This document shows, in pieces, positions 12,544-28,341 of a stretch of DNA of 55,681 bases. The notes beneath the pieces were generated by a model. That model saw only the letters and a program-made list of their open reading frames with translations, was not told the origin of the DNA and did no database searches. The position numbers and the translations under genes were made by a program. Source of the stretch: an uncultured Roseburia sp. (lineage in GTDB: Bacteria > Bacillota > Clostridia > Lachnospirales > Lachnospiraceae); NCBI GenBank assembly GCA_947567625.1, contig CANONN010000020.1, positions 1 through 55,681 of the forward strand. Reading direction: 5' to 3'. Within the stretch, counting starts at the first letter, position 1. Each line of letters opens with the position of its first letter.

Positions 12544-12951
12544 TTATAAATTTTTCCTAATCTTCAGAATGTTTTTGCCGTCCTTATATTCATAAAAAAC
12601 ATCGTCCATTGATTTCTTCACCATATAAATACCCAAGCCCCCGATCTCGCGCTCCTCTGCGGAAAGTGTGATATCAGGATCGGCTTTTGCAAGCGGGTCA
12701 TAGGGTACGCCGTTATCGATAAACGTGATGACTACCGCAAGAGGGTTATCCGTAACCTCAACGCGCACGGTAGCGGTGCCGATATTGGGATTGTAGGCGT
12801 AGTTGGCGATGTTTCCGAACAGCTCGTCTATCGCTATATCCATCTGCATTTTTGTTTTCGGCGGGCAGTCGAGCTGCTCCAATTGTTCATCCACAAAGGC
12901 TGTCACGACGGAAATGTTGTCAAGCGTCGCGTCAATGGTAAGCTCTTTCAT
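12544..12951 (-). CDS. RsbW-like serine kinase / ATP-binding protein (HATPase_c)
   Basis: 135 residues from ATG 12951, with GGAGG 6 nt upstream; the longer open frame runs back into the phosphatase gene. GHKL motifs are intact: N-box DELFGNIANYAY (Glu43, Asn47), DNGVPYDP, and the G2 box GGLGIYMVK. In Bacillus such proteins bind and silence a sigma factor and phosphorylate a STAS antagonist. It follows the SpoIIE-type phosphatase by 1 nt, so the two are translationally coupled. No sigma factor is encoded nearby. The likely partners here are the STAS protein at 25.8 kb and the phosphatase. Confidence 0.9.
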   Translation of the reverse strand: MKELTIDATLDNISVVTAFVDEQLEQLDCPPKTKMQMDIAIDELFGNIANYAYNPNIGTATVRVEVTDNPLAVVITFIDNGVPYDPLAKADPDITLSAEEREIGGLGIYMVKKSMDDVFYEYKDGKNILKIRKNL

Positions 12952-12952
12952 T

Positions 12953-14563
12953 TCAAACCTCCATTCTCGCCTTGTATTCAAGACAAAGCATTGTAATGTC
13001 GTCAAACTGCGGCGCATCGCCCACAAAGCAGTCGATATCATCTTTGATTTTAGGCAGCAGCTCTGTTGGAGGCAGTGCGGCATTTTCCCCAAGAACAGCC
13101 GTCAGGCGCTCCATGCCGTACAATTCGTTCTCTTTATTGGTAGCCTCGGTAACGCCGTCGGTGTACTGGAATATCTTGTCACCGACCTCAAGCTGCATTT
13201 CACCGCCTTTATAGCGCATACCCTCCATGCCTGCGAGAACAAATCCTGCGCGTATCTTATAAGGCTCAAAGCCGCCGTCTTTTTTGCAGATATAGGGAAT
13301 CTCATGACCCGCATTTACAAAACGGAAATTTCCGCTCACTAAGTCGAGAACACCCTCAAACGCCGTGATAAACAAGCCCTCGCTGTTTGATTCACACAGC
13401 AGCTCGTTTACCTTGGTGAACACCTCGCCCAAATCCTTGCCGGTCTGCGTATGATCCTTTATCAGCGTTTTACCGATTACCATAAACAGCGCTGCGGGAA
13501 CCCCCTTACCCGAAACGTCCGCCATCACAATAGCAAGGTGGCGTTCGTCTACCATAAAGAAATCGTAAAAATCACCGCCCACCTCTTTGGCCGGGTTCAT
13601 CGTAGCGTAAATATCTATTTCCTTGCGCTCGGGGAACGCAGGGAAAATGCTTGGCAGCATATTCGCCTGAATGCGCGTGGCAACGGAAAGCTCGGTGTTG
13701 ACACGCTCCTTTTCCGCGGTTATCGCGGTAAGGTTTTTCGTGTACTCGACGATATCCGTTTCCATTTTTTCGACCGCACGGGCGAGTATCCCGACCTCGT
13801 CCCTCTGCCCTATTTTCAGCAGATTTTCGGACGGTATATTCGTTTCCGCAAAGCGCTTCGCCTCGTCCGTGACCGTAAGGATCGGTTTGATAACGGTGCG
13901 GCGCAGTATCACCGAGTATACGAAAATAAACAGGATGATCGCTGCCAGTGTCCATAAAATAACGTGCAGAACGTAAGTGCTGCGGGCATTTTCAAGACGT
14001 GTCATTGGCTTTTCAACGCACAGCATCGCAATGATTTCGCCATCCGAGTTTTTCACGTCGATCGCGGCGGTCGTGTGTGCGCCGGATTCCTTTGAATAGG
14101 AATACAAGTATTTTTCGGCGCGTCCGCCCACCGTCATAATTTTAATCACATTCTCGGTATGCTTTTCATCAAGATCGGATGCGGTGTAGCCCAACGGATA
14201 GCGCGCAAAGCCCGTACTTGAATTTACCGTATCGTAAATGTAGGTAAGCGTTTTGTAATCTTCGCTTACCCTCGCGACGTATATAAATGTGACGTTTGTC
14301 GCGTCGGTAAGCACATCCAGTCTCGCCAGAATATTCTCGTATTCCTCGTCGGCCTGTCCCGTTTCGAGGTATTGTGCGAATTTATCGGGATTTAAAATTG
14401 AACGCGCCGTTTCCGCGATCTCGTATGCCGAATCATTATATTGCTGTTCAAGCACCGCGGTAAATTCTATATATCCTACCGTGCTACACACCGCGCCTAA
14501 TAATATCCCAAAAAGAATGACTCCTATCGTAAGCTTGCCTGCTATTCCGGTGAGCTTTTTCAT
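12953..14563 (-). CDS. SpoIIE/RsbU-type PP2C phosphatase with extracellular sensor and HAMP domain
   Basis: 536 residues from ATG 14563 (GAGGAG 4 nt upstream). One membrane helix at about 8-30, an extracytoplasmic sensor (about 31-190), a second helix (about 195-215), then a HAMP region, a short coiled coil (YTKNLTAITAEKERVNTEL) and a C-terminal PP2C/SpoIIE domain from about residue 300. The metal-binding motifs EVGGDFYDFF, DVSGKGVPAALFM and FQYTDGVTEA are present. It should sense an outside signal and dephosphorylate a STAS protein, here presumably the one encoded at the head of the operon. The 5' leader carries a family-B repeat. Confidence 0.92.
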   Translation of the reverse strand: MKKLTGIAGKLTIGVILFGILLGAVCSTVGYIEFTAVLEQQYNDSAYEIAETARSILNPDKFAQYLETGQADEEYENILARLDVLTDATNVTFIYVARVSEDYKTLTYIYDTVNSSTGFARYPLGYTASDLDEKHTENVIKIMTVGGRAEKYLYSYSKESGAHTTAAIDVKNSDGEIIAMLCVEKPMTRLENARSTYVLHVILWTLAAIILFIFVYSVILRRTVIKPILTVTDEAKRFAETNIPSENLLKIGQRDEVGILARAVEKMETDIVEYTKNLTAITAEKERVNTELSVATRIQANMLPSIFPAFPERKEIDIYATMNPAKEVGGDFYDFFMVDERHLAIVMADVSGKGVPAALFMVIGKTLIKDHTQTGKDLGEVFTKVNELLCESNSEGLFITAFEGVLDLVSGNFRFVNAGHEIPYICKKDGGFEPYKIRAGFVLAGMEGMRYKGGEMQLEVGDKIFQYTDGVTEATNKENELYGMERLTAVLGENAALPPTELLPKIKDDIDCFVGDAPQFDDITMLCLEYKARMEV

Positions 14564-14574
14564 GGTTCTCCTCA

Positions 14575-14615
14575 TTTCTGCATTGCAAACAACGTTCGCA
14601 TTTGCTCTTTGCTCA
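14575..14615 (-). repeat. Family-B leader repeat upstream of the phosphatase gene
   Basis: On the minus strand GCAAAGAGCAAATGCGAACG, then TTGTTTGCAATGCAGAAATG, leading into the ribosome site. The centre is palindromic (TGCGAAC against GTTTGCA). Close relatives precede the genes at 54.2 and 55.5 kb and, shortened, the precursor gene at 19.77 kb. Confidence 0.65.
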
Positions 14616-16265
14616 TAACAATTTTGTCTGTGCCGCGAAAAAGCGTTTCTTTTCCTCCGTGTTCAAAAAATGCGGCATTTTACTCTGCGCCATCGGCTTG
14701 CCTCTTTCCGCGAGCCTTTGTTCGTAGCGTCTGAAGCTGCCTTCCCGTAAAAACCTGATCTGCAAGGGTCTGATCTCGCGCATATTCCGGCACGATCTGT
14801 ATTCGGGATTTGCGGCGCACATGCACTCCTCAAAGATCGCGTCCGCGTCCCGGGGAGCTTCTTCACATTCCATATAAAATAAATATCCGGGCGCGATTTC
14901 TGAGAAATCCTCGCAGACACAATAACCCCTGACCTCGGTGCGCGCCAGTTCCATAAATCGCTTTATAGCCATATCAAACTGCTGCTGATTGCTCTTTTCG
15001 CCCGCAATGTTGATCACCTGGCTTCTGCGGTAGCAGAACTTTACGACCGGCGCCATTTCGTGCATTCCCACAACCTTGACAACATCGCCAAGCCTGTAAC
15101 GGTACAGTCCCGAACGGTTGGTAACGACAAGCTCGTATTTTTCGCCGGCCTTGACCTCGCCGATCAGCAGCGGCGTATGATCATGATCCCCGTTTACGGG
15201 GATAAACTCAAAGAAAACCGATTCGGGCAGCAACATATATCTATCTGCCGAATCCATGTTCTCCGCCAAGCCGAAAACGCCCTCCGAGGCTGCAAAGACA
15301 AAATAATGCACAGGAACCCCGTCCGCGTATCCGCGCACTTTTTCAGTATAATAAAAAAAGCTGTCGCCTCCGATCGCGAGAATGTATTTTATATTTTTCC
15401 AGATTTTTCTGATGATTCCCTTGTGCCGCTCCTCACATGAAATACCGCGAAGTTCGCGCGCGCGTTCGGGATTGGGCGGCAGCTTGTCGGCGAGATATTT
15501 TTTCTGCTTTTCGGGAATGTCAGCGCTTACCGTACCGTATTCCATATCGTTTAAAAGCGCCTCCCAATTGCGGAGGATATACTCGATCACTCCCGCGATG
15601 CGGTTGATAAATACGCCGTGTATCGCCGTCAGACCGCGCTCTTCAAGTGCAAACCTCACCTTGACATATAGCTGATCCTCCAGCGTTTCGGGAAATAGAA
15701 TCTCCTTTGGCACACAGTAATCGGAAGCGTCAAATTCACCGTTTCTGTCCAGCCACTGATAGACGCAGCTGGAACGTATCCCGTTCATTTTGCCGTCGGG
15801 CATATATGTTTTCGCAAACTCGCCTATCTGAAAAATTTTTCCGAAAACATCCGCTTCGTCCAGATCGCGGTAATGCTCCCGTACCTGCCCGAAAACAGCT
15901 CCGTACATAAACGTATAGTGCGCTTCCAGATCATATTCGGTAAGCGGAATATATTTCTCATCTCCAACAGTCCCGGAGCTTATACAAAAATATACTGCGT
16001 CGCGCGCGGTCAGAATATTTTTTTCTCCGTCAATCATGCGATCCACGGCGCGGGCATAGTCCTCATAGGTCGAGAGAGGAACTTTTTTCTGGTATTCCCG
16101 AACGGAATCCATTTGTGCAAAGCCATAGCGTCTGCCGAATTCCGTGTCACGGTTCTCATTCAGCCAATTGAGGAGGAATTTCGTCTGCACCGCTTCCACA
16201 TTCCTTGCCGACGCTTCCAGGCGTTTCAATGATTCGCTCCCGAGCCGTCCGTAGTCCGTTTTCAT
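14613..16265 (-). CDS. GH3 auxin-responsive-promoter family protein (ANL-type acyl-adenylating enzyme)
   Basis: 550 residues from ATG 16265, which shares a base with the stop of the MATE gene (TAATG), so translation is coupled. GH3 signatures are clear: P-loop SSGTVGDEKYIPLT (96-109), AASEGVFG (about residue 325), and the hinge YRYRLGDVVKVVG near 385, followed by INIAGEKSNQQQ. Plant GH3 enzymes adenylate a carboxylic acid and join it to an amino acid. Bacterial members are poorly characterised. In this operon it could acylate or amidate the exported peptide or make a small signal molecule; both are guesses. Length is normal for the family and no domain is missing. Confidence 0.88.
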   Translation of the reverse strand: MKTDYGRLGSESLKRLEASARNVEAVQTKFLLNWLNENRDTEFGRRYGFAQMDSVREYQKKVPLSTYEDYARAVDRMIDGEKNILTARDAVYFCISSGTVGDEKYIPLTEYDLEAHYTFMYGAVFGQVREHYRDLDEADVFGKIFQIGEFAKTYMPDGKMNGIRSSCVYQWLDRNGEFDASDYCVPKEILFPETLEDQLYVKVRFALEERGLTAIHGVFINRIAGVIEYILRNWEALLNDMEYGTVSADIPEKQKKYLADKLPPNPERARELRGISCEERHKGIIRKIWKNIKYILAIGGDSFFYYTEKVRGYADGVPVHYFVFAASEGVFGLAENMDSADRYMLLPESVFFEFIPVNGDHDHTPLLIGEVKAGEKYELVVTNRSGLYRYRLGDVVKVVGMHEMAPVVKFCYRRSQVINIAGEKSNQQQFDMAIKRFMELARTEVRGYCVCEDFSEIAPGYLFYMECEEAPRDADAIFEECMCAANPEYRSCRNMREIRPLQIRFLREGSFRRYEQRLAERGKPMAQSKMPHFLNTEEKKRFFAAQTKLL

Positions 16266-17989
16266 TATGCGGAAATTCCTCCCTCCACAAAAATTTGCAC
16301 CGTATTTGTGCCAAATGTGCGCTGATACATCGTTTGCTCGCACATACTCTCGATCAGACGGATTCCCATATACGCGTCGTCATCTTCGGCATATGCAAGC
16401 GGGTTGAAGTCGCTTCCGCCATAGCGTATGCGGATACCGATCACGCCCTGCAGGAAATAGACGCGCAGGTCAAATTCGACGTCCCCCTCGTTTTTATCGG
16501 CGATCAGCGTCATAATTTCTTCCATCGCAAGACTGATGCGCATCGTCTGTTTGGGCGACATTCCGTTTTCACCGCAGAAGTCGGTTATCCTGCCGCTTGC
16601 GTCGCAGATATTCTCTGCGCTGCCCTCCACCGAAAAATTGATCACATTTCCTGATTGCTCGAGGGAGTTATCCAAAAGCAGAAAACGCGAACGGTTTTTA
16701 TGTAATATCCCTGTTGCGATAAACCAGAAAAGCAATGTTAAAGCTTCTCCAAAAAACAAAAACAGCCACGGGCTTTGGCCAAAATACAGCAGCACAAAAA
16801 GGCTCGCGCAGGACGCTACAAATACCCTTAGAAATATGATCGCGTTCGACCACAGCGTTCGACCCGAAACATTGTAATAGCTTAAAAGAACGCCGTTTAT
16901 AAGCGCGGGTATCATTCCGAGCGACATACAAACAAACGCAAACCGCAGTGGAGTATGCAGGCCATACGCCATTGAAATCAAATCCGCGCCAAGAATAATG
17001 ATTGTGGAAAAAAGCAGGCTGTACGGAATACCGCTCTTTAATTGACGTTTCATTAAAAGCCGCGTGCTTTCGTTGTCGTGTTCTCCGTTGTAGATGCCAA
17101 GCATTGCCGAGGCAGCCTGCGGGACTCCGCTCGTCACGCTTTCCTCAAAGGCCGCGATACAGTTCACCGCCGTAAACGCCGCCACCGTATCACTGCCGCA
17201 ATAGCAAAGTAGGAGTGTATTTATCACCGATACGCGCAGGGTCTGAAAGAGATTGTTCGCCGCCGACGGGCTGCCCGCTTTTGCGATCTCGGAGAATCTT
17301 ACGCCCTCGCCCTTTACGCGAATTCCGAAAGGAAACCCGCTTTTTTTATCGCATAACCGCACGAACCCGAGCACACAAGCCGCCGCTGTTGAGAGCACGC
17401 TCGCCAGCCCCGCGCCGAACACTCCCATATCCAAAGCATACAAAAAAACCACATCCAGCAAAACGTTTCCGCCGCCCATGATCAGCATCATCAGCGTGAC
17501 CTGCCCGCTGCGCCCGTCAAGCCGCAAAAACCAGAACGGTATGTAGATCAGTATTTTGGGAAGCGCTCCCGCGATCGTTATACTCGCATATTCCACAACC
17601 AAAGGCATTATGTTGTGATCCGGGCACAAAAGCAGCGACAGCGGTTTTAGAAACATCAGTCCGAATATCGTGATGAAAACCGAAACAACCGTACACCAAA
17701 AAATTGACATACGGTAAAGATCCTGTGCCTGTCCGTTCCGGTTTTTTCCGATCGCATCCGATGCACAAATCGCCGTTCCGGACACAAGGAACGAACCCGC
17801 GATACAGAGCACCAGATACACGGGCAGACTGAAATTTATGGCCGCGAGCGCGTTTGTTCCGAGCCGCTGTCCTACCAAAATACCGTCCGCCAAGATATTG
17901 ATATTGCCGCTCAAAACGGACAGTATGCACGGGATAAGGGCTTTGTTATATGCTTTTCTGAGGAATTGCTCGTTTTGCTTAAGCTCCAT
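16265..17989 (-). CDS. MATE-family transporter fused to an RsbW-like ATP-binding domain
   Basis: 574 residues. Residues 1 to about 440 form a 12-helix MATE/MOP transporter (GNINILADGILVGQRLGTNA, FSEIAKAGSPSAANNLFQ). Residues from about 447 form a GHKL/RsbW-like domain (RISLAMEEIMTLIAD, FNPLAY, YMGIRLIESM, ending FGTNTVQIFV). In the N-box the Mg-binding Asn is replaced (EEIMTLI), and the G boxes are weak (YMGIRLI). The fused domain may therefore bind a partner rather than act as a kinase. The stand-alone RsbW-like protein of the same operon keeps all these residues. Start ATG with GGAG 5 nt upstream. The transported substrate is unknown. Confidence 0.88.
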   Translation of the reverse strand: MELKQNEQFLRKAYNKALIPCILSVLSGNINILADGILVGQRLGTNALAAINFSLPVYLVLCIAGSFLVSGTAICASDAIGKNRNGQAQDLYRMSIFWCTVVSVFITIFGLMFLKPLSLLLCPDHNIMPLVVEYASITIAGALPKILIYIPFWFLRLDGRSGQVTLMMLIMGGGNVLLDVVFLYALDMGVFGAGLASVLSTAAACVLGFVRLCDKKSGFPFGIRVKGEGVRFSEIAKAGSPSAANNLFQTLRVSVINTLLLCYCGSDTVAAFTAVNCIAAFEESVTSGVPQAASAMLGIYNGEHDNESTRLLMKRQLKSGIPYSLLFSTIIILGADLISMAYGLHTPLRFAFVCMSLGMIPALINGVLLSYYNVSGRTLWSNAIIFLRVFVASCASLFVLLYFGQSPWLFLFFGEALTLLFWFIATGILHKNRSRFLLLDNSLEQSGNVINFSVEGSAENICDASGRITDFCGENGMSPKQTMRISLAMEEIMTLIADKNEGDVEFDLRVYFLQGVIGIRIRYGGSDFNPLAYAEDDDAYMGIRLIESMCEQTMYQRTFGTNTVQIFVEGGISA

Positions 17990-18032: not shown

Positions 18033-19430
18033 TCATACGCTCCCTATAGGCGCAAGGTTTTTCCAACCGTCAAACAGTGCCGTCAGCTTCTCGTAATAAC
18101 CCTTTTGAAAAAACACACACTTCGCGGGGTCGCTGCCGAGCTTCTCGCCCGTGAGCGCCATTGCCAGAGCGCGGCATCCGCCGACGCAGTACTTAAAATA
18201 TCCGCAGGCGGCGCACGTTTTGTTATGCTCGGCGAGAGTTTTGACGGTCGTGCATACCTCGTCGAGATATTTTCCGCTTTGCAAAAGCTTTTGCAACCCG
18301 TCTGTTTTGACATTGCCGAGAAGCTCTCCGCGCGCGTCATAGGTTCCGGAAAGCTGCATACACGGGTATACGTTGCCGTTGGCTGCAATGGCAATCTTCC
18401 CGCGATTACCCCGGCATACGGGCAAGCCGTCGCGGTACTCACCTTCGGCGCACTCAACGGGACGGACGCGAAACGCCCTGCTTTGCGGAAAAACCGTCAA
18501 AAACTGCCAGATATCGACCTCCATTTTGCGCGGTTCCCTGATATACTCCGCCGCGAAATCATACATCAGATTGTAATATTCTTCGATGCCAAGACACGCG
18601 TCACCCGCGTTTTCTTTCCAGCGCGGCGATTCTGAGGTGCGGATGACCCGCATTTCGGATATTCCCATTTTATCAAGCATCACCGCGGTAGGCAGCATTG
18701 CCTCGACATTTAAGCGGTGGACATTCGTCTGCACCTTAACGCGAAAGCCGTTCCCGAGACAAGCCGTAATCGCCGCAAGCGCGCTTTTTTCCGCGCCCTC
18801 GCGGTTTCTCAGCCAATCGTGATGACCGACGCCGTCAAAGGAAATCTTAATCAGCGCATCGCAGCCAATCTTTTTCAAACGGTCAAGCGTGTTTTGATCA
18901 ATAAAGTGGCCGTTGGTGTTGAGTTCCTCGACATACATGCCGCGCTTGTATATTTCCTCGACAATCTCAAGGAAATTTCGGTGCAGCATAGGTTCACCGC
19001 CCGTTATCGTAACGGAGTTCACGCCGCATGTTTGAGCCTGTTTTAGCAGCGCCTTTGCCTCGTCGAGCGTCCATTCGCTCATAAGCGGCGCGTTGTCGGC
19101 GGCGTTAAAGCAATGCAGGCAGTTGTAATTGCACTTTCCCGTTATCGTAAAACTCACGGCGGGAAAGTAGCGGTTATCGCAGTCGAGATGTTGTTGCCAT
19201 GCAGACAGGCCGCCGCCGTTATTGTCCTCAGAGATGAATCCCATATCGAGGAATTTTCCCGCAAGCGGGGCGTTTGCCTCGATCTCGGTTTTTCCGTCAC
19301 ACTTTAAAAGGAACTCAAACTCGTCCTTCCTTAAGCCCCTCGCATTGCGCACGCCCTTTATGTAGTACGCGTAAGGCACCCGCCGCCACGAGCGCAGCGC
19401 TATATTGGGATTTAATCGGTAACAGCCCAT
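18033..19430 (-). CDS. Radical SAM/SPASM RiPP maturase
   Basis: 465 residues; AGGAG precedes the ATG. An N-terminal PqqD-like leader-recognition region (about 1-65, ending CDGKTEIEANAPLAGKFLDM) is followed by a radical SAM domain with C100-x3-C104-x2-C107 (CNYNCLHC) and GGEP. The C-terminal SPASM region has CAEGEYRDGLPVC, YPCMQL, CAACGYFKYC and GGCRA for auxiliary iron-sulfur clusters. Enzymes of this layout make thioether or other crosslinks on Cys-rich peptides (sactipeptides, ranthipeptides). Three Cys-rich precursors lie directly upstream in the same transcript. A truncated copy of its N-terminal codons lies at 20264-20352. Confidence 0.93.
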   Translation of the reverse strand: MGCYRLNPNIALRSWRRVPYAYYIKGVRNARGLRKDEFEFLLKCDGKTEIEANAPLAGKFLDMGFISEDNNGGGLSAWQQHLDCDNRYFPAVSFTITGKCNYNCLHCFNAADNAPLMSEWTLDEAKALLKQAQTCGVNSVTITGGEPMLHRNFLEIVEEIYKRGMYVEELNTNGHFIDQNTLDRLKKIGCDALIKISFDGVGHHDWLRNREGAEKSALAAITACLGNGFRVKVQTNVHRLNVEAMLPTAVMLDKMGISEMRVIRTSESPRWKENAGDACLGIEEYYNLMYDFAAEYIREPRKMEVDIWQFLTVFPQSRAFRVRPVECAEGEYRDGLPVCRGNRGKIAIAANGNVYPCMQLSGTYDARGELLGNVKTDGLQKLLQSGKYLDEVCTTVKTLAEHNKTCAACGYFKYCVGGCRALAMALTGEKLGSDPAKCVFFQKGYYEKLTALFDGWKNLAPIGSV

Positions 19431-19451: not shown

Positions 19452-19763
19452 TTATCCGAACTTTACGGTTCTGCTGTCTATACTGAATACGGCAAAATCC
19501 CCCCCGCAATCCGGGTGAGCGTTGCAATGATCCATCACGACCACCGCCAGATCGTTTTCACCCCGATTGTCGAACGCGCAGGACTGCCAGCCACATTTGT
19601 TGCACCTTGCGATATAAAACAAGGAGTCGAGAACGGCGCCGCCAGCTACTCCGTCGAGAGCGTCATCGGGCAGTTCGCCGCTTGGCGGCAAACCCTCCGC
19701 GGGATTTTGCACGGCCTTTTTTAAACTGTTGATCTGCATTTCGTTTTTCTTGTTGTTATCCAT
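19452..19763 (-). CDS. RiPP precursor peptide 1 (double-glycine leader, Cys-rich core)
   Basis: 103 residues from ATG 19763; an ATG at 19766 is equally possible, and AAGGAG lies just upstream. The leader is short and lacks the helical MENFNEELMAKA start of its two neighbours. It still ends in SGELPDDALDGVAGG, a canonical C39 cleavage site (GG at 41-42). The core has five Cys (54, 57, 62, 80, 86), including CNKC. It sits 21 bp before the radical SAM gene. Core sequence differs fully from precursors 2 and 3, so one enzyme may serve several substrates. Confidence 0.8.
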   Translation of the reverse strand: MDNNKKNEMQINSLKKAVQNPAEGLPPSGELPDDALDGVAGGAVLDSLFYIARCNKCGWQSCAFDNRGENDLAVVVMDHCNAHPDCGGDFAVFSIDSRTVKFG

Positions 19764-19769
19764 CATTTT

Positions 19770-19796
19770 CTCCTTTTCTGCGCTGCTCTTTGCGCG
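19770..19796 (-). repeat. Family-B leader repeat, short form, upstream of precursor 1
   Basis: On the minus strand CGCGCAAAGAGCAGCGCAGA then AAAGGAG. It has the same outer parts as the copies at 14.6 and 55.5 kb but lacks the central palindrome. Confidence 0.5.
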
Positions 19797-19832
19797 TCTG
19801 CCTCACTCTTTCTTTTCGATGATTGAGGCGGT

Positions 19833-20243
19833 TTATTTATTATTGTTGGCGGGATGATTGCAAAGCCACATTCCTTTTTCATAGCTCACAAAATCGCAGT
19901 TTTTGCAGATACCGGGAGCCTGAAGGTAAAGCAGTTTATACACATGGTTCGGACACCGGTGAGTACTCGGGTTAACCTTCTGCCCGCAGTATTTGCATGC
20001 CCAGTTTCCGCAGCCGTGACCTGTCGTTACCACCAATCTTCCGTCACCTTTATGACAGCCGCCGCCCGCCACGCTGTCAAGCTCATCGTCGGATAATCCT
20101 CCCGACTTGTTCATCTGCTCGAAATAGTCGTTCGCTTCCTGTTCGGAAAGCTCGACCTCATTTTCTTTCGCAAGCGCCATAAGCTCCTCCACAGAGTTCG
20201 CGGCTCTTGCCTTTGCCATAAGTTCTTCGTTAAAGTTTTCCAT
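19833..20243 (-). CDS. RiPP precursor peptide 2 (Nif11/NHLP-like leader, Cys-rich core)
   Basis: 136 residues. The leader (1-61) is helical (MENFNEELMAKARAANS, LMALAKENEVELSEQEAN) and ends SDDELDSVAGG, a typical double-glycine site for the C39 exporter. The core of 75 residues starts GCHKGDGRL and has eight Cys, among them ACKYC, RCPNH and ICKNC. Spaced CxxC pairs suit thioether crosslinking by the SPASM enzyme or metal binding. The first 62 residues are almost identical to precursor 3. The core is about 19 residues longer and richer in Cys. Confidence 0.85.
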   Translation of the reverse strand: MENFNEELMAKARAANSVEELMALAKENEVELSEQEANDYFEQMNKSGGLSDDELDSVAGGGCHKGDGRLVVTTGHGCGNWACKYCGQKVNPSTHRCPNHVYKLLYLQAPGICKNCDFVSYEKGMWLCNHPANNNK

Positions 20244-20395: not shown

Positions 20396-20749
20396 TTACC
20401 TTTTGTTGGCGGGATGATTGCAAAGCCACAATCCTTTTTCATAGCTCATAAACTTGCAGTTGCCGCAAGTGCGCGGGGCAACCTTCATCTCCCAGGATTT
20501 GCCTTCCCAATTTCCACAGTGGTTACCTACCGTTATCTCCAATCTTCCGTCACCTTTATGACAGCCGCCACCTGCCACGCTGTCAAGCTCATCCTCGGAC
20601 AATTCACCCGACTTGTTCATCTGCTCAAAATAGTCGTTCGCTTCCTGTTCGGAAAGCTCGATCTCGTTTTCTTTTGCAAGCGCCATAAGCTCCTTTGCAG
20701 AGTTCGCCGCTCTTGCCTTTGCCATAAGTTCTTCGTTAAAGTTTTCCAT
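20396..20749 (-). CDS. RiPP precursor peptide 3 (Nif11/NHLP-like leader, Cys-rich core)
   Basis: 117 residues from ATG 20749 (GGAGGG 7 nt upstream); the longer open frame is not needed. The leader matches precursor 2 almost residue for residue and ends SEDELDSVAGG (GG at 60-61). The core starts GCHKGDGRL and ends SYEKGLWLCNHPA, as in precursor 2. The middle is shorter and has lost the CKYC pair (here GKSWEMK) and the CPNH segment, leaving GNCK. It has five Cys. It is the first precursor in transcription order, directly after the exporter genes. Confidence 0.85.
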   Translation of the reverse strand: MENFNEELMAKARAANSAKELMALAKENEIELSEQEANDYFEQMNKSGELSEDELDSVAGGGCHKGDGRLEITVGNHCGNWEGKSWEMKVAPRTCGNCKFMSYEKGLWLCNHPANKR

Positions 20750-20844: not shown

Positions 20845-23046
20845 TCAAGCCCCTGTTTTCGCCGTATCGTCAAGCCGTTGCCGCGCGACCAGCTCTGCGA
20901 AAAAACCGCCGTTTTTGATAAGCTCGTCAAATTTTCCATCCTCGATGATCTTGCCCTTGTCGAGGACGATAATTCTGTCGCACTGTTTGATCGTAGAAAG
21001 CCTGTGGGCAATCACGATACGCGTGCATTTGAGCCCGTCGAGCGATTCCGAAACGGTTTTCTGCGTGAGATTGTCGAGCGCGGAGGTCGCCTCGTCGAAC
21101 ATCAGAATCTTCGGTTTGGGCGCGATCGCGCGGGCTATCATGAGCCGCTGGCGCTGTCCTCCCGAAACGCCGCCGCTTCCCTCGGAGATGATCGTGTGCA
21201 TTCCCATCGGCATACGGCGGATATCCTCCGCGATACCCGAAAGTTCGGCCGCTTTCCACGCATCTTCCATCGTAAGCCACGGCGCAGAGATCGTGATATT
21301 TGAAAAAATATCCCCCGAAAACAGCTTGCCGTTCTGCATTACAACACCGATGTTGCGCCTTAAAGATTTCAAGTCCACCGAGGAAATATCCTTTCCGTCG
21401 AAATATACGGCGCCTTTCTGCGGCGTTTCAAATCCGAGCATCAGCCGCATCAGCGTGGACTTTCCGCAGCCCGTCGCACCTACTATCGCCACATACTGCC
21501 CGGGGCGAATTTTCAGCGAGAGATCGTTCACTACGAGCGGCATATTCTTGTGGTAACGGAACGAAACGTTGTTCAGCTCAATCCCACCCGAAAGCCGCGT
21601 TATCATCTGCTTGCCCTCGGAGATCTCGGGAACGGTCTCCAAAATCGGCTTTACCATATCCATGATCGGTTTTATCTGCGCCACCGTAAGCGCTATCCCC
21701 GCCAGCGACAGAAACGCTCCCGAAACCATTCCGTATGCGGCGTTGAACGCGTAGTAATCCGCGACGGAAACGCCCGACGACACCGCGAAATAGTACATCA
21801 CAAGTGTTCCCGCAAGCGATATGGCCGTGGAGATAACTCCGTTGATTTTGATGAACGCGGGCGGGTCGTAGCCAAGGCGCGCCTGCTCTGCGTACAGATT
21901 TCCCCAACGGGCGAACGCTCTCTTTTCCGCGCCCGAAAGCTTAATCTTTTGCACTCCCGAAACAAGCGCGTAGGACATTCCGCTTTCCTTTGAAGATAAT
22001 TCCATCTGCCGCTTGCTGATATTCATCTGCACGAAAGCCGTGATCACCGAAAACGCCACCGTGGCCAAAGTAATCATAAGCGACGGTACGACCAGCGCAG
22101 GCGCGTACACGAAGATCTGCGAAATGTACACAAGTGAAAAAACCGAAGTCAAACCCGTGGACAGCACCGTGGACACGAGCATATTACAAAGTGAATTTAT
22201 GTACTGCGCCCTCGCGGACAGCTCGCCCGAGCTGTAATTTTTGAAAAACTCGGCGGGCAGCGACAACACTCTTGACATAGCAGCCGCCTGAACGGTAACA
22301 CTCATTTTCGTGTTGATTCGCGCCGTGATAAGCTGCTTTACGGCGTTTATCAGCATGGAGCTTATCGTGACGCAGACCATAAAGACAGTTACCGCGAATA
22401 GTAACCGCATGTTTCCGCTCTCGATAACGGTGGAAAAAAGCAGATTGTTCAGCTTCGGCGAGAGCATGCCAATCAGCGTAACACCGAGTGTCGCAAGCCC
22501 CGTCAGTACAAAATCCGGCGGTGACAACGTTGCGAGGATGTACTTCATCAGATCAGGGATACCAAGCTTTTTCAGCGGCAGGGGCTTATAAAAAGCAACC
22601 GCCTCTTCCTCAAAAAGCTCCTGATTTTTTCGATTTAGTTTCACGCGCTTTCCAGTTTCCGTGTCGGTAAAGCGATACCCCGAAAGCCCCGTGGGTATCA
22701 GCGCGACAATTCCTCCATCACTTTTGCGAACGCCCAGCATCGCGCCGACAGCATCTTTGTACCACCCTTTTTTGAGCATTACCGTGCGGCGCATTATGCC
22801 GTGCGGACGGAGCAGATATTCAAGCTGCTCGTTGCTGTCCTTAATACTATCGGGAATTTCCGACGTTTTGACGTGATAAAATTTTAGTATCTCGTCAAAC
22901 GCGTTTTTCGCAATCTGCCGCTTGTCGTTCAGCGCGGCAGAAACACGGCTTCCCATGACTGCCCCCGCGATATTGACAAAGGAGTCCGCGAAAACGTCAT
23001 CGTCATTTTGTTTGCGCTGCTTTATCTGTTCATCAAACCAACCCAT
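20845..23046 (-). CDS. NHLM-type bacteriocin exporter, ABC transporter without peptidase
   Basis: 733 residues. A 160-residue cytoplasmic N-terminal domain (through GIVALIPTGLSGYRF) precedes six membrane helices (about 175-450) and an ATPase domain with GATGCGKST, VSGGQRQRL and ILMFDEATSALD. This is the second, peptidase-less transporter of paired NHLM systems, in which it works beside a C39-peptidase transporter of similar length. It ends 96 bp upstream of precursor 3. The two ABC genes are separated by 14 nt. Confidence 0.9.
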   Translation of the reverse strand: MGWFDEQIKQRKQNDDDVFADSFVNIAGAVMGSRVSAALNDKRQIAKNAFDEILKFYHVKTSEIPDSIKDSNEQLEYLLRPHGIMRRTVMLKKGWYKDAVGAMLGVRKSDGGIVALIPTGLSGYRFTDTETGKRVKLNRKNQELFEEEAVAFYKPLPLKKLGIPDLMKYILATLSPPDFVLTGLATLGVTLIGMLSPKLNNLLFSTVIESGNMRLLFAVTVFMVCVTISSMLINAVKQLITARINTKMSVTVQAAAMSRVLSLPAEFFKNYSSGELSARAQYINSLCNMLVSTVLSTGLTSVFSLVYISQIFVYAPALVVPSLMITLATVAFSVITAFVQMNISKRQMELSSKESGMSYALVSGVQKIKLSGAEKRAFARWGNLYAEQARLGYDPPAFIKINGVISTAISLAGTLVMYYFAVSSGVSVADYYAFNAAYGMVSGAFLSLAGIALTVAQIKPIMDMVKPILETVPEISEGKQMITRLSGGIELNNVSFRYHKNMPLVVNDLSLKIRPGQYVAIVGATGCGKSTLMRLMLGFETPQKGAVYFDGKDISSVDLKSLRRNIGVVMQNGKLFSGDIFSNITISAPWLTMEDAWKAAELSGIAEDIRRMPMGMHTIISEGSGGVSGGQRQRLMIARAIAPKPKILMFDEATSALDNLTQKTVSESLDGLKCTRIVIAHRLSTIKQCDRIIVLDKGKIIEDGKFDELIKNGGFFAELVARQRLDDTAKTGA

Positions 23047-23060: not shown

Positions 23061-25262
23061 TTATTCATTCGTAACAAGCGATGTATACACACCGTTTTTC
23101 GCAAATAATTCCTCGTGAGTTCCCCGCTCGATAACAACGCCGTTGTCAAGCACGATGATCTCATCGCAGTCGCGGATGGTTGATAATCTGTGTGCCACGA
23201 CGATGCAGGTAATTCCCCTGTCCTTTATGGATTTCACGACCTCATATTCCGTTTTTGCGTCCAGCGCGGAGGTTGCTTCATCAAGTATGATGATCGTAGG
23301 GTCTTGCGCGAGAACGCGGGCAATCTCAATGCGCTGCCGCTGACCGCCCGAAAAATCCTTGCCTCCCTCGGTGATCTTGTAGTTGTAGCCGCCGTCGCGC
23401 TGCATAATGTCCTCATGCAGCTGCGCGTCTCGCGCCGCCAAGATCATCTCGAAATCCTCTATCGAGCTGTCCCACATTTTGATATTGTTCGCGATCGTGT
23501 CCTCAAACAAAATAATATCCTGATCAACCACGGCGAGCGAACCGGTAAAAACGCTCCTGTCAATGCTGTTGATCGGTTTTCCGTCAAACAGAATTTCACC
23601 GCTCCATGGCTTGTACAGTCCCGAGATAAGCTTCGAGAGCGTAGACTTTCCGCAGCCGGACGTACCGACAAACGCAACGCGGCTGCCCGTTTTCAGCGTT
23701 AGGTTGAAATCACGGATAAGCGGCTCGGCAAGGCGCGAGTATCCGAATGTGACGTTTTTTAGCTCCACATTCCCCGATAATTTGTCATACTCCGCGTCCT
23801 CGTCAACCCCGTCGTTATCGTAATTTACGTCGGTCGGGTATTCCATAACATCCTCGACGCGCTCCATCTGTGTGCGCATTTCCTGTAATGTCTGCCCCGC
23901 GGATATAAGCGTCTGCGCGGGCCCTGCGAACGAGCCGAGGAAGCCCTGAAACGCCATGATCATGCCGACGGTGAACCCGCCGTTTATCGTGAAATAAACG
24001 CCGAGTATGAGCACCGCGGTATTGGCAAACGCCGTCACGAAGGACGGTATCATTCCAAGGTATTGATTGAGCTTTTGGAATTTCACCTGCTGCGTGTTTA
24101 CGCTCGCCTGATAGCCCGCCCATTTCTCGAAAAATCCGTTTTCCGCACCGCTTGCCTTGATCGTTTCTATCATCTCGATTCCCGCAACGGTAGCTCCCGC
24201 AAGCTTGCCCGCATCGCGCATTTGCACGCGCGTAATATTGATACGCTTTTTGGAAATAATCCGCGAAACGAAAAGGTTTATCACGATGGAAGCAACGCCG
24301 ACAAGAGTAAGCGGCAGACTGTAGCGGATCATCACGACAAGATAAAAAATCATCATGATCGTGTTCAAGGCAAGGGGCGCTAAAGTCTGCACCAGGGACT
24401 GCGCGATAGACGCGTTCATCAACTGCCGCTGCTGAATATCTCCCGCCATACGCTGCGAGAAAAACTCCATCGGCATACGCAGTACCTTCCACATATATTC
24501 CGTGCTGCCGACAACGGAGAGCTTGCCGTTTATTTTCAGTGAGTAGACGGTCTGCACCCACCCCACGACAAGCCAAACCGCACTCAATGCCCCGAACGCA
24601 AAAAGAAAGGGCAAGAACCATTCCGGGTTTTCGCCCGTAAGCAGCCTGTCCAGAAAAATTCTTGAAAACGCGGGCTCGATCATCCCCATAAGCGAGCTGA
24701 TAATCGTTGTCAGCACCACAAAAGCGACAGCCGTCCCCGCGCCCTTTAAGCGTTTTTTCGCAAACGATACGACGCTTTTGGGCTTGCCGCCCGGCTCGAA
24801 ATTTTCCGACGGCGCAAACATCAGGCAAATTCCCGTAAACGACTTGTCGAACGTTTCCATAGACACACAATAGCTGCCCTTTGCTGGATCGTTAAGATAT
24901 GCTTTGTTCCCCTTAAAGCCGTTCAGTACCAGAAAATGGTTGAAATTCCAGTGGATGATGCACGGAAACGTGCCGTCTTTCTTCAAGTCTTCGGGCTCGT
25001 AGCGATAGCCCTTTGCCATCAGCCCGTAGTTTCGCGCCGCCTTGAGGACGTTTTTCGCGTTTGAACCGTCGCGCGAAACGCCGCAGTCCGCGCGCACCTG
25101 CTCGAGCGGAATCCATTTTTCGTAATACGCAAGTATCATGGTAAGCGAAGCCGCGCCACATTCCAGCGCTTCCATCTGCATTACGACGGGGACTTTTGCC
25201 ACCCGGCCTGTAGACGCCGCGCTGTTTTTTATCGGCTGCTTGATAGATTTTGTTGTACACAT
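23061..25262 (-). CDS. NHLM-type bacteriocin exporter, ABC transporter with C39 peptidase domain
   Basis: 733 residues. The N-terminal C39 peptidase carries the catalytic Cys in MEALECGAAS, His in NHFLVLNG and Asp in LNDPAKGSY, and should cut the leaders after Gly-Gly. A six-helix membrane domain (about 170-450) and an ATPase with GTSGCGKST, FSGGQRQRI and IIILDEATSALD follow. It should form the cleavage and export machine with the next gene product and the small adaptor upstream. Confidence 0.95.
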   Translation of the reverse strand: MCTTKSIKQPIKNSAASTGRVAKVPVVMQMEALECGAASLTMILAYYEKWIPLEQVRADCGVSRDGSNAKNVLKAARNYGLMAKGYRYEPEDLKKDGTFPCIIHWNFNHFLVLNGFKGNKAYLNDPAKGSYCVSMETFDKSFTGICLMFAPSENFEPGGKPKSVVSFAKKRLKGAGTAVAFVVLTTIISSLMGMIEPAFSRIFLDRLLTGENPEWFLPFLFAFGALSAVWLVVGWVQTVYSLKINGKLSVVGSTEYMWKVLRMPMEFFSQRMAGDIQQRQLMNASIAQSLVQTLAPLALNTIMMIFYLVVMIRYSLPLTLVGVASIVINLFVSRIISKKRINITRVQMRDAGKLAGATVAGIEMIETIKASGAENGFFEKWAGYQASVNTQQVKFQKLNQYLGMIPSFVTAFANTAVLILGVYFTINGGFTVGMIMAFQGFLGSFAGPAQTLISAGQTLQEMRTQMERVEDVMEYPTDVNYDNDGVDEDAEYDKLSGNVELKNVTFGYSRLAEPLIRDFNLTLKTGSRVAFVGTSGCGKSTLSKLISGLYKPWSGEILFDGKPINSIDRSVFTGSLAVVDQDIILFEDTIANNIKMWDSSIEDFEMILAARDAQLHEDIMQRDGGYNYKITEGGKDFSGGQRQRIEIARVLAQDPTIIILDEATSALDAKTEYEVVKSIKDRGITCIVVAHRLSTIRDCDEIIVLDNGVVIERGTHEELFAKNGVYTSLVTNE

Positions 25263-25273: not shown

Positions 25274-25747
25274 TCAATTCAATATAAATGACATCGGAGA
25301 AACGCTTTCCGTCACAATCTCCGCCTTATATGTACCGTCCGAAAGGGTGGCGCCCGCCGTTACCCGATACAGCCAATCGCCCTCCGAAAATCCACCGAGA
25401 TACAGAAGATAGTCATCCATATCCGCGCTTACGGAAATCGGCTGAGCGGAGACCTCCGACACGTACAGTGCATTCCCGTCAACGTTCACGGTCATTCCCG
25501 ATTTTATTTTCGCAGCTTCCTCCTCGCCCACATAGCAGGTGAAAACGCCGTTTTCACAGATTCCCGCCGTTGCTATTTTGGTATCCAAATGCCCGAAGAT
25601 CCCCCATACGCACACACCGATCAGCAGTGTGATGACCGCCGCCAATATCATCCAAACGCCCGGGTTAGATACGCGGATATAATCGTTCAATTGCTCCGGC
25701 GAGGAGACTCTCTCCATGCTCGCCTTGCGGAAAAGTTGTTTTTCCAT
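25274..25747 (-). CDS. Short NHLM secretion adaptor (HlyD-like, no coiled coil)
   Basis: 157 residues. MEKQLFRKASMERVSSPEQL and NDYIRVSNPGVWMILAA fit the N-terminus of NHLM secretion (HlyD-family) proteins: cytoplasmic start, one membrane helix (about 30-52), then a lipoyl/beta-barrel-like outside part. A full adaptor is 300-400 residues with a long coiled-coil hairpin, which is missing here. That makes sense without an outer membrane. It is 11 bp upstream of the peptidase-transporter gene. Confidence 0.75.
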   Translation of the reverse strand: MEKQLFRKASMERVSSPEQLNDYIRVSNPGVWMILAAVITLLIGVCVWGIFGHLDTKIATAGICENGVFTCYVGEEEAAKIKSGMTVNVDGNALYVSEVSAQPISVSADMDDYLLYLGGFSEGDWLYRVTAGATLSDGTYKAEIVTESVSPMSFILN

Positions 25748-25759: not shown

Positions 25760-26056
25760 TTACTCGACCGTGAGGATATCCACAAATCCCGTGACCTCGA
25801 ATACCTCCAAAATAACGTCGTTGACATTTCGTATCACCATTTTACCCTGCTTGTTCATGACCTTCTGCGCAGCCAGCAGAACGCGCAGCCCCGCCGAGGA
25901 GATATATTCCAGCTTCGCGAAATCCAATATCAGCTCGGTATTGTCGGCGATGCTCTGTTTTAATTCCGCTTCGAGCTGCGGTGCGGTCGTGGTGTCAAGC
26001 CTGCCCTCTAAAGCGACATTCAGCGTCGTTCCATCCAAGCTCTTAATTATGTTCAT
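25760..26056 (-). CDS. STAS-domain anti-anti-sigma factor (SpoIIAA/RsbV type)
   Basis: 98 residues from ATG 26056; GGAGG lies 8 nt upstream, and an ATG at 26062 is too close. The whole protein is a STAS domain (LNVALEGRLDTTTAPQLEAE, LILDFAKLEYISSAGLRVLL). SSAGL holds the Ser normally phosphorylated by an RsbW-type kinase and released by a SpoIIE-type phosphatase. Both enzymes are encoded at the far end of the same operon. As first gene of the transcript it may be made in excess. No sigma factor is present, so its target could be the MATE-linked RsbW-like domain or a sigma factor elsewhere. Confidence 0.93.
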   Translation of the reverse strand: MNIIKSLDGTTLNVALEGRLDTTTAPQLEAELKQSIADNTELILDFAKLEYISSAGLRVLLAAQKVMNKQGKMVIRNVNDVILEVFEVTGFVDILTVE

Positions 26057-26093: not shown

Positions 26094-26149
26094 ATCATAT
26101 TGCGTTCAAATTCTTTCCTGCATTTTACGCCAAAAATCTGCATTTTACG
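26094..26149 (-). promoter_or_regulatory. Candidate LytTR operator and promoter of the RiPP operon
   Basis: Two perfect copies of CTGCATTTTACG lie at 26118-26129 and 26138-26149, 20 bp apart. On the minus strand they are followed 18 bp later by TATGAT (26099-26094), with the proximal copy where the -35 box should be. LytTR regulators bind two direct repeats about two helix turns apart at such positions. The adjacent divergent gene encodes a LytTR protein. The match is by spacing and context, not by a known consensus. Confidence 0.6.
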
Positions 26150-26251: not shown

Positions 26252-26983
26252 ATGTGTCTTGACATCGCCGTATGCGACGACAATGAAGCCGAGCTTGCCA
26301 AAATTACGGAGCAAATACACATGGCTTGCTCTGAGATGAATATCGCGGCGCAGATCCGGTCGTTCCGATCGGGGGAGGAGCTTCTCGCCTCGGACGCCGT
26401 GCGTGAGTGCGGAATTATTTTTATGGACATATATCTGGGCAGCATAAACGGAATAGACGCAGTGCGCAGCATTGCACCCGACAGTTCCCAAAACGTTGTT
26501 TTCATAACCGTCAGCACTGACCATGCCATTGAAGCGTTCAATCTCAATGCCGCGCACTATTTGGTAAAGCCGACAAGTGTTGAATCCGTCTCCGAGGCAA
26601 TCAGGCGATGTATCCCCAATGCATCCGATGAGAACGAACCTGTGCTTGAAATAAAAACGGGTAAGATTACGGTTCCCATACCAATAAAAACTATACTGTA
26701 TATAGAAGTTATGGATAAGTACTGTGTAATCCACACGGATACAAACACGTTTGAAACACGTTCATCGCTCGCCCTGCTTTACGAACAGCTCGACGACAGG
26801 TTTTTTATGAGGCCGCAGCAAAGCTATGTCGTCAATATGGCAGCGATAGAAAAGTTTAATTTCGACCGTATTCTTTTGCGCGGCGAAAAAGACATACCGC
26901 TGTCTCGAAAAAACAGGGCCAAGCTTCAAAAGCAGTATCAGAGTTTTCTGTTCAGATCGGCTAGAGGTGGAGGTATATGTTAA
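26252..26983 (+). CDS. LytTR-type response regulator
   Basis: 243 residues from ATG 26252 (GGGAGG upstream). The receiver domain (about 1-120) has the acidic pair CDDN, phosphoacceptor Asp59 (IIFMDIYLG) and HYLVKP. The LytTR DNA-binding domain (about 130-240) has ILYIEVMDKYCVIHTD, FMRPQQSYVVNM and IPLSRKNRAKL. It overlaps the sensor kinase gene by 7 nt and is divergent from the RiPP operon, whose promoter has matching direct repeats. This is the classic peptide-pheromone two-component type (AgrA/ComE class). Confidence 0.95.
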   Translation: MCLDIAVCDDNEAELAKITEQIHMACSEMNIAAQIRSFRSGEELLASDAVRECGIIFMDIYLGSINGIDAVRSIAPDSSQNVVFITVSTDHAIEAFNLNAAHYLVKPTSVESVSEAIRRCIPNASDENEPVLEIKTGKITVPIPIKTILYIEVMDKYCVIHTDTNTFETRSSLALLYEQLDDRFFMRPQQSYVVNMAAIEKFNFDRILLRGEKDIPLSRKNRAKLQKQYQSFLFRSARGGGIC

Positions 26984-28341
26984 AATTTTTTTGGATATTA
27001 ACGGATGACCTTATTACGATACTGCCGTTTGCTTTTTTATGCTTTTATCCGCTAAAAGGCTACAGCAGATTTTCCGTCAAGAAAACCGTTTTGCTTACCT
27101 CACTTGTCGTTGCGGCTGCGTCGGCGGCAGACGCGCTCGTTATGACGTTTTTTTCTGAACGGACGAATGACAGGGAAATTTTGAGTGTTTTAGGCAATGT
27201 CGTCTACATTACCGCCGTCATTCTTTGTTTCGCATGGTGCGTTTACGCGATAAAAGCGATATGGCAGAAAAAGGCGTTTGTTTTTTTATTCGTTTTATGC
27301 GGCGCACTGTTCACTGTGGTGCTTTCCAATTTCTTTTTGGGCATGTCCCCCACGGCGGAGGGTCAGCTTTTTTTCGCGAACTGCGACACGGTCATCTTCC
27401 GCGCTGTTGCGGAATGTATCGTCATACCGCTGCTGTGTTTGTTTTTTGGGAGATTTTATCTGCCGATAGAACGGAATATAGATAAAAAAGAATTGACGAT
27501 CTTAAACGTTCCAATGCTTACATTGTTCGTTATTTTGTTTATCATTTTTACTTTTCTTGAGACTGAGGGTCTGTACGCAAATCCGTCGGAGAGCTTGCTG
27601 TATTTCGGCATACTCACTATGCTTTTCGTCCTCTGCACCGTTTTGTTCAGAATCTGCCGCCTTATCCGCGACAGGCAGGCAACGAGCGAAAAGCTGATAC
27701 AAAGCCAATATCAGATGAATATCCGCGATGAGCAATACCGCCGTATCTGTGAAAACATTGAGGGAGTGCGCCGCCAGCGTCACGATATGCGGCATCACAT
27801 GACGGCTCTGCGCTGCTTTCTCGAAAACGGCGATACAAAAAAGGCGATGGAATATCTCGACCAATATCTGGGAAATTGTCAAAATCAAACTATCATGATC
27901 TACAGCAAACATCCCGTTATCAATATGATCGTCAGCCACTACGCCGAACTGGCACGGGAACGAAAGATACCGTTATCGGTGCATATTCAGTTTTCCGACG
28001 AGCTGTCCCCCGATAAGTTAGCGATAGAAAACGTTGATATTTCCGTCCTACTTGGAAATCTGCTTGAAAACGCAATCAACGCTGCGTCAAAGCTTCCTGT
28101 GTCGGAGCGCGATATCAAACTCAATATTCTGCAACAGGGAAATATGCTCGCTGTTACTGTAGACAACAGCTTCAACGGCGAGGTTTTGCAAAAGGACGGC
28201 GCTTATCTTTCCACGAAACCGGGACACAGCGGTCTGGGGCTTTCCAGCCTTATGGACATTGCGGAAAAATATTATGGCGGGACAGAGTTTCGTCATGTGA
28301 ATCACACATTTTATTCCTCGATCATGCTTAAGTTGGATTAA
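26977..28341 (+). CDS. AgrC-like GHKL sensor histidine kinase
   Basis: 454 residues. Six or so membrane helices (about 5-225) form the sensor. Then come a dimerisation helix with RQRHDMRHHM (phospho-His269), the N-box LLGNLLENAINAA and the G-box SGLGLSSLMDIAEKYYG. This family senses peptides. The matured RiPP or a processed leader could be the ligand (inference). It is translationally coupled to the response regulator. Nothing recognisable of a dedicated autoinducer gene is nearby. Confidence 0.93.
   Translation: MLKFFWILTDDLITILPFAFLCFYPLKGYSRFSVKKTVLLTSLVVAAASAADALVMTFFSERTNDREILSVLGNVVYITAVILCFAWCVYAIKAIWQKKAFVFLFVLCGALFTVVLSNFFLGMSPTAEGQLFFANCDTVIFRAVAECIVIPLLCLFFGRFYLPIERNIDKKELTILNVPMLTLFVILFIIFTFLETEGLYANPSESLLYFGILTMLFVLCTVLFRICRLIRDRQATSEKLIQSQYQMNIRDEQYRRICENIEGVRRQRHDMRHHMTALRCFLENGDTKKAMEYLDQYLGNCQNQTIMIYSKHPVINMIVSHYAELARERKIPLSVHIQFSDELSPDKLAIENVDISVLLGNLLENAINAASKLPVSERDIKLNILQQGNMLAVTVDNSFNGEVLQKDGAYLSTKPGHSGLGLSSLMDIAEKYYGGTEFRHVNHTFYSSIMLKLD

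Follow-up and report, generated by a model that had tools for sequence, protein, structure and literature searches.

A recurring composite of a RiPP export cassette and a sigma-less partner-switching module with MATE and GH3 genes

What might a partner switch act on when no sigma factor is encoded beside it? Partner switches are mainly known as controls of sigma factors. The question is raised by the stretch of DNA analysed here (the window; 55,681 nucleotides), which is contig C20, part of the 3.42-Mb draft genome of an uncultured Roseburia sp. On its minus strand, a gene run from position 26056 down to 12544 encodes a STAS protein, a short HlyD, two ABC exporters of the NHLM type (ABC1 and ABC2), three precursors of ribosomally synthesized and post-translationally modified peptides (RiPPs), a radical SAM enzyme, a MATE exporter, a GH3 enzyme, a SpoIIE phosphatase and an RsbW-like kinase. 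Together these genes form a real and recurring composite, in which a RiPP cassette is combined with a sigma-less module of switch, MATE and GH3 genes. Our tentative answer, to which we give somewhat less than an even chance, is that the switch works on proteins: the STAS protein, set by RsbW and SpoIIE, would dock on the C-terminal tail of the MATE exporter, and this sigma-less switch would have been joined to a RiPP cassette.

The run is uninterrupted, as the preliminary description of this DNA had it. All of the named genes are present, and neighbouring genes are -1 to 152 nt apart. All 12 genes begin with ATG if the chosen starts are taken; a purine-rich stretch was seen by eye 5' of the start in 11 of them, SpoIIE being the exception. 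Between 12300 and 28600, 24 terminator-like hits were counted against a shuffled mean of 21.7 (sd 5.2), which is no excess.

The STAS protein (25760-26056, minus strand; 98 aa) is of the anti-sigma-antagonist type. It matches TIGR00377 with 69.7 bits, above the cut-off of 53.45, and the alignment shows that the phosphorylatable serine motif SSAGLR is kept. The S-A/M-GLR pattern is present in 16 of 20 aligned STAS rows; for the remaining four, the piece cut out was unrelated or lacked the STAS part. In the RsbW-like kinase (12544-12951, minus strand; PF13581, HATPase_c_2, 72 bits), the N-box Asn, the DxG motif (DNG) and GGLG are all intact in the alignment. The phosphatase (12953-14575, minus strand) is a SpoIIE/PP2C-type membrane protein with a HAMP domain, and its matches to PF07228 (154.4 bits) and PF00672 (26.2 bits) identify it as the PP2C/SpoIIE component of a partner-switching module. 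No sigma factor was found in the run. The earlier statement that every switch part except a sigma factor is there, that is, phosphatase, kinase and STAS protein, was therefore confirmed.

This set resembles the SpoIIAA/SpoIIAB/SpoIIE and RsbV/RsbW systems in having a STAS protein, an RsbW-type kinase and a SpoIIE-type phosphatase with conserved motifs. It differs from them in two ways: neither the run nor the rest of the contig was found to encode a sigma factor, and the MATE transporter is fused to an additional RsbW-like domain that is degenerate. To our knowledge, the nearest studied switch with a non-sigma output is SiaABCD. As far as the accessible part of the source goes, SiaABCD of Pseudomonas aeruginosa likewise combines a PP2C phosphatase, a kinase and a STAS-like protein with an output other than a sigma factor (PMC7647112); that output, however, is the diguanylate cyclase SiaD, whereas the window run has a MATE, a GH3 enzyme and a RiPP exporter but no cyclase. 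The best NCBIfam match of the window SpoIIE is SiaA, at 72.4 bits far under the cut-off of 700.

The proposed docking site is the degenerate HATPase_c_2-like C-terminal domain of the MATE exporter (16265-17989, minus strand; MatE, 61.7 bits). This tail, at about residues 445-574, aligns with RsbW, and both the N-box Asn and the G1 Asp are lost in the window protein. Among 20 aligned MATE tails inspected by eye, the N-box Asn is lost in 11, nine of which have also lost the G1 Asp, and is kept in nine. In locus L117 (loci and genomes are denoted here by L and G numbers), the orthologue, 80% identical to the window MATE, matches HATPase_c_2 with 30.8 bits, over the cut-off; its contig position was mapped to the locus by hand. 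The AlphaFold model of the MATE, made from a six-sequence alignment, has a mean pLDDT of 67.3, and the order of its elements fits, by our own reading and with modest confidence, a HATPase-like tail. The tail looks like a kinase fold turned into a docking site, namely an RsbW minus its ATP-binding residues.

The GH3 acyl acid-amido synthetase-like enzyme (14613-16265, minus strand) has N-terminal, central and C-terminal domains with 211, 88.9 and 67.8 bits, all over the cut-offs. It matches plant GH3 structures over nearly its full length (4b2g, E 4.4e-56, residues 11-536). Its only NCBIfam match up to E 0.1 is OlsH, the lyso-ornithine lipid synthetase family NF052613. In the part of the source available, OlsH is an N-acyl ornithine synthase, a bacterial GH3-like enzyme that produces N-acyl ornithine (PMC12493201); the window enzyme is alike in being a bacterial GH3 enzyme but, with 95.3 bits, lies far below the OlsH cut-off of 620. 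The window GH3 likely makes an amide of an amino acid, which could be exported by the MATE.

The proposed mechanism is as follows. The LytTR system would start the operon at the STAS promoter, and RsbW, whose motifs are intact, would phosphorylate the STAS protein at the serine of SSAGLR. An outside signal would cause the membrane phosphatase SpoIIE to dephosphorylate the STAS protein. The unphosphorylated form would then bind to the degenerate RsbW-like tail of the MATE and gate the export of the GH3 product, likely an N-acyl amino acid or a similar amide. The RiPP would share the operon and perhaps also the gate. The preliminary description had already raised the possibility that a transporter, and not transcription, is what the switch acts on; this is the option we favour, and it is unproven.

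The LytTR two-component system indeed faces the run on the plus strand. It consists of a LytTR-type response regulator (26252-26983; start read by hand), the best matches of which are BtsR, LytR and AgrA, all below the cut-offs, and an AgrC-like sensor histidine kinase (26977-28341; NF046015, 35.9 bits, below the cut-off of 500). LytTR-controlled promoters have two direct repeats about 21 bp apart close by. In the window, an exact 12-bp direct repeat with a period of 20 bp lies 5' of STAS (26118-26149, minus strand); it is the longest exact repeat for periods of 18-24 and was reached by 0 of 1000 mononucleotide shuffles, and it is a candidate LytTR-type site. Nine upstream regions were compared. 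Close kin in G057 and G285 have a different 9-bp repeat with a period of 20 bp (reached by 7 and 6 of 1000 shuffles), and the repeat in L117 is 8 bp with a period of 21 bp (28 of 1000). No notable repeat was found upstream in L122, G116, L133, L093 and L107 (344-758 of 1000).

Recurrence of the locus was examined by scanning an alignment of seven radical SAM sequences against the genome_contigs collection and taking the best 80 loci. Many of these contigs are short, and only the best 80 were taken, so that absence of a gene from such a locus is weak evidence. Genes missed by the simple gene caller, for example RsbW of G116 and G285 and STAS of L117 and L122, were recovered by tblastn. L117, from a metagenome-assembled genome of an uncultured Ruminococcus, has all ten gene types in the window order. 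The identities to the window are 85% for STAS, 75% for HlyD, 89% for ABC1, 86% for ABC2, 73% for the radical SAM enzyme, 80% for MATE, 61% for GH3, 80% for SpoIIE and 79% for RsbW. L119 and L120 match the window order as far as their contigs extend. L118 begins inside ABC1 and then follows the window order through RsbW, with an extra sigma gene of the extracytoplasmic function (ECF)-like type and a second STAS gene between the radical SAM and MATE genes. The long genes of both halves are 60-97% identical across L117-L120. Since the gene order is repeated in L117, chance neighbourhood in one genome was ruled out. L122 (Bacterium D16-36) retains the RiPP part with an ECF-like gene as well as STAS and RsbW, which both match over their full length; MATE and SpoIIE are remnants (L122:12078-12809), and there is no GH3 match. 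Judging from the sequence, L122 is a natural decay of the module. A cultured relative, Murimonas intestini DSM 26524 (L135, with the same radical SAM enzyme as locus L068 of G310), also has switch genes next to its cassette, but the stretch fetched there showed no STAS.

Comparison of relatives indicates how the run is built: it consists of a RiPP cassette and a STAS...MATE-GH3-SpoIIE-RsbW module, which occurs free of RiPP genes in several genera; the cassette is situated between STAS and MATE. G057 has the LytTR pair, STAS, MATE, GH3, SpoIIE and RsbW; the identity in its switch part is 59-83%, and its STAS is followed directly by MATE. Between these two genes, G285 has genes with domains of amino-acid ABC importers, and G116 has an ATP-grasp gene. 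G521, from another family of the same order, has STAS, GH3, MATE, SpoIIE and RsbW. NHLM genes are absent from the regions fetched for these four genomes. In addition, G633 has STAS, MATE, SpoIIE and RsbW but lacks both GH3 and NHLM genes, and no RiPP genes were seen beside STAS, MATE, GH3 and SpoIIE of G157 (6.7-kb contig) or beside MATE, GH3 and SpoIIE of G321 (MATE at the contig start), where the view is cut by contig ends. Conversely, in the stretches fetched for L116, L121, L126 and L180, which hold the RiPP part, STAS, SpoIIE and RsbW gave no match. The view of GH3 and switch as components of a single RiPP system was thus not supported as it stood, because each half is found without the other. 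The preliminary description had named relatives that routinely carry phosphatase, kinase and GH3 genes but no RiPP genes as grounds for giving up a single system. This applies in part, as G057, G285, G116 and G521 are relatives of that kind.

The MATE, GH3 and radical SAM trees were calculated after rows with internal stops had been dropped. In both the MATE and the GH3 trees, the RiPP-less G057 and G285 nest within the RiPP-bearing clade. The MATE tree places them beside L118 (100/99), and the next clade out (G321, G293, G157 and G116) has no RiPP genes in the fetched stretches, which are 4.9 kb for G293 and 6.7 kb for G157. The simplest reading of the MATE tree would be one gain and a later loss of the RiPP cassette, one inner branch being weak (85/66). 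In the GH3 tree, G057 and G285 are beside L117 (100/99), and one gain plus one loss costs the same as two gains. The module is rare: at E<=1e-60 its MATE was found in 2 of 61 genomes of the genus (own genome included) and 4 of 391 of the class, and at E 1e-40 in 10 of 299 of the family.

If the RiPP cassette had simply landed in a switch operon, it would be co-transcribed only, and the switch would serve MATE and GH3 alone. The clean separation of the modules in both directions and the absence or replacement of the RiPP block in G057 and G285 fit such a view. Against it stand the conserved order in L117, in L119 and L120 to their contig ends and, apart from two added genes, in L118, and also the fact that differently arranged loci with switch genes next to NHLM exporters recur. 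We consider it quite unlikely.

That recurrence was counted in the family, where TIGR03797 is matched at E<=1e-120 in 42 of 299 genomes (own genome included). At most three candidates per genome were scored. Of 44 NHLM exporter hits with at least 580 bits, 41 entered the enrichment test; the three not used were the window (the seed), G217, whose sequence was fetched in other pieces, and a second hit at the G104 locus. A SpoIIE-type gene is in the fetched stretch of 6 of the 41 loci, where the SpoIIE counts of the individual genomes lead one to expect 0.89 (Poisson P 3e-4). In 11 of the 41, the exporter is accompanied by one or more of STAS, SpoIIE and RsbW, and in four of these 11 it is STAS only. 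The 41 loci are not fully independent, because several share one genome. These counts rest on STAS and PP2C profiles and on BLAST matches to RsbW, STAS and SpoIIE; a self-made HATPase profile also matched ABC-type ATPases and was not used.

A simpler version is found in two genomes labelled as archaeal. L187, on a 224-kb contig labelled Thermoplasmata archaeon, has a precursor, a radical SAM enzyme, ABC1, ABC2, STAS and a SpoIIE fused to HATPase_c_2. A proteasome-activating nucleotidase, which is typical of archaea, and a CDC48-type ATPase are encoded on the same contig, both over the cut-offs. The second locus, L177, is labelled Methanomethylophilaceae and lies on a 12.5-kb contig, for which mis-binning is a possibility. 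Sigma70_r2 has 0 matches in the genomes of L187 and L177. A switch of this type can therefore be present next to a RiPP exporter in a genome where no bacterial sigma factor is detectable. It should be mentioned that a piece like a tyrosine-recombinase C-terminus was seen by eye (L187:5985-6257), some kb upstream of the RiPP genes of L187; it hints at transfer.

In the archaeal loci and in G239, STAS adjoins ABC2. By analogy, the STAS protein might act on the NHLM ABC exporter itself, as MlaB, likewise a STAS protein, does on the Mla ABC transporter, so that the switch would gate RiPP export. The excess of SpoIIE-type genes near NHLM exporters and the position of the window STAS, which opens the run encoding HlyD, ABC1 and ABC2, agree with this. 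Furthermore, the matches listed by the STAS sequence search include a STAS protein, chain K of 7ch8, which we take to be the Mla complex. On the other hand, the module of STAS, MATE, GH3, SpoIIE and RsbW exists without an NHLM exporter in the fetched stretches, and the structure model of ABC2 (mean pLDDT 56.8) was too poor to be used for judging its N-terminal region. This explanation seems quite unlikely.

Returning to the docking of STAS on the MATE tail, several observations weigh against it. The window tail itself reaches 13.1 bits for HATPase_c_2, below the cut-off of 27.4, and a fold search with the MATE model returned MATE-like and flippase folds that cover the MATE part only and not the tail. 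The relation between tail and RsbW is imperfect: G321 has a degenerate tail, and no RsbW was found nearby. L122 keeps STAS and RsbW without intact MATE, SpoIIE and GH3, which suits a target other than the MATE. Control by LytTR is not general. In L117, STAS directly follows another MATE-like gene, the repeat is weak, and no LytTR pair was seen beside the locus; L122 lacks the upstream repeat. The MATE and GH3 trees conflict on the nearest kin of G057 and G285. Finally, the genome of the window has 21 Sigma70_r2 matches elsewhere; among the 40 loci that have two or more switch components, 12 have a sigma-like gene in the fetched stretch and 28 are without; and in L096, L182 and L191 a sigma gene lies between STAS and RsbW. 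This order is the one to be expected of a sigma-directed switch; it speaks for such a switch in those loci and is, together with the sigma gene beside RsbW in G239, the main evidence against our reading.

The last points belong to the main rival, a sigma-directed switch whose sigma factor is encoded elsewhere: RsbW would hold it, and dephosphorylated STAS would free it to drive this or other operons. Sigma is also beside RsbW in G239 and in one stretch with STAS and RsbW in G217, and L118 has its ECF-like sigma gene next to a second STAS gene, so the claim that no relative has a sigma factor was rejected. Nevertheless, all the 21 matches of the window genome are on other contigs and none is on C20, and the run does not contain the sigma gene that defines a SigB/SigF-type operon. 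The ECF profile has no match in the window, and the same profile finds the SigF-like gene of this genome beside a SpoIIAB-like one. With this profile, no sigma-like gene was seen in L026, L029, L035, L048, L107, L117 and L199. Among nine GH3-bearing loci with at least two switch parts, the window included, only L118 has a sigma-like gene. An ECF-like sigma gene directly follows the radical SAM gene in L116, L118, L121, L122 and L126, which are five of the ten radical SAM rows of the window clade; since L116, L121 and L126 carry it although STAS, SpoIIE and RsbW gave no match in the stretches fetched for them, this gene seems to be a component of the RiPP cassette. No homologue of this factor was found at E<=1e-15 in the genomes of the window, L117 and L180, and the window cassette probably lacks it through loss. 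The two archaeal genomes, with 0 sigma-70 matches, also argue against a sigma factor acting in trans. Altogether, this rival is rather unlikely. Whether loci that lack the ECF-like gene tend to have the MATE-GH3 module was considered by a hand count of ten close loci, which is too small a number for a claim.

Between the radical SAM gene and the ECF-like sigma gene, a protein of 62-90 aa is encoded that overlaps the sigma gene (L116:11386-12136, L118:11356-12064, L121:11302-12070, L122:11302-12071 and L126:11302-12070). By eye it looks like the end of a RiPP leader without a core, and the L116 copy has no Pfam match. It is possibly a sensor or an anti-sigma partner.

A wider form of the protein-level reading can be put forward, though with a chance well below even. 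In part of the RiPP export loci that gut Firmicutes and rumen archaea carry, the partner switch would never act on a sigma factor, STAS would gate exporters directly, and the MATE-fused former kinase domain would be the STAS docking site in the group of the window. If direct gating by STAS is true, biosynthesis, export and signal would be coupled at the protein level.

The RiPP cassette itself is of a recognizable kind. ABC1 (23061-25262, minus strand), a peptidase (C39)/permease/ATPase exporter, matches TIGR03796 with 944.9 bits, and ABC2 (20845-23046, minus strand), a permease/ATPase exporter, matches TIGR03797 with 739 bits, both over the curated cut-offs that mark NHLM exporters. The HlyD-like secretion protein (25274-25747, minus strand) does not qualify as the HlyD partner of TIGR03794: it has only 157 aa, covers positions 1-52 of 421 and scores 45.2 bits against a cut-off of 156.2. 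It is likewise short in many relatives and longer in others, such as L059. The radical SAM/SPASM maturase (18033-19430, minus strand) was assigned by PF04055, PF13186 and alignment.

The three precursors are on the minus strand and have leaders ending in GG. Precursors 1 (20396-20749) and 2 (19833-20243), with Nif11-like leaders and Cys-rich cores, score 23.3 and 20.5 bits for TIGR03798 and miss its curated cut-off of 32.3; one L117 copy has 31.5 bits. Precursor 3 (19452-19766) has no family match and, by eye, a zinc-ribbon-like core; its copies in L118, L120 and L122 are 70-78% identical, and the sister precursors are variable. By eye, the cores in the window (19452-20749) and in L117, L118, L133 and others look like small zinc ribbons with CxxC pairs, and many precursors end at the C-terminus in CSYEKGLWLCNHPANRK or similar. 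With the NHLM/Nif11-type loci, as described in the available part of Haft 2010 (PMC2887384), the cassette shares ABC1 and ABC2 over the cut-offs, GG-ended Nif11-like leaders and a radical SAM enzyme, but its HlyD is cut short and its leaders are below the Nif11 cut-off.

In the accessible text of PMC2887384, SpoIIE and anti-sigma do not occur and "stas" occurs once, within an author name; the accessible texts of PMC8939145 and PMC4289311 contain no STAS, SpoIIE or anti-sigma. Literature joining RiPP, NHLM or GH3 with a partner switch was not found among titles and starts of abstracts, a coverage that leaves out most subscription journals. The recurring association of the switch with RiPP exporters and MATE/GH3, together with its sigma-70-less archaeal version, would make it possible to test whether the export of a natural product is controlled at the protein level. 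STAS, SpoIIE and RsbW genes beside NHLM genes may serve as a genomic marker for regulated RiPP loci. The MATE tail raises the question of whether a degenerate kinase domain can act as the regulatory ear of a transporter.

Some neighbouring features were also noted. On contig C38 of G057 (L026 and L045), the RiPP-less module is flanked by apparent nonribosomal peptide synthetase genes, two further MATE:HATPase genes and a second STAS gene; such switches may accompany other natural-product loci. L029, in G079, has consecutive genes for SpoIIE, a fusion of SpoIIE with an RsbW domain, STAS, GH3 and MATE:HATPase, and the G079 genome has 10 SpoIIE matches. In the window, a convergent open reading frame just downstream of the run (10684-12432) encodes 582 aa, with a weak SH3-type match below the cut-off and a glycosidase-like C-terminal half. 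Two very large open reading frames of 1580 and 2353 aa occupy 30253-42058; the 1580-aa one reads as secreted, with Ser/Glu-rich linkers and C-terminal repeats.

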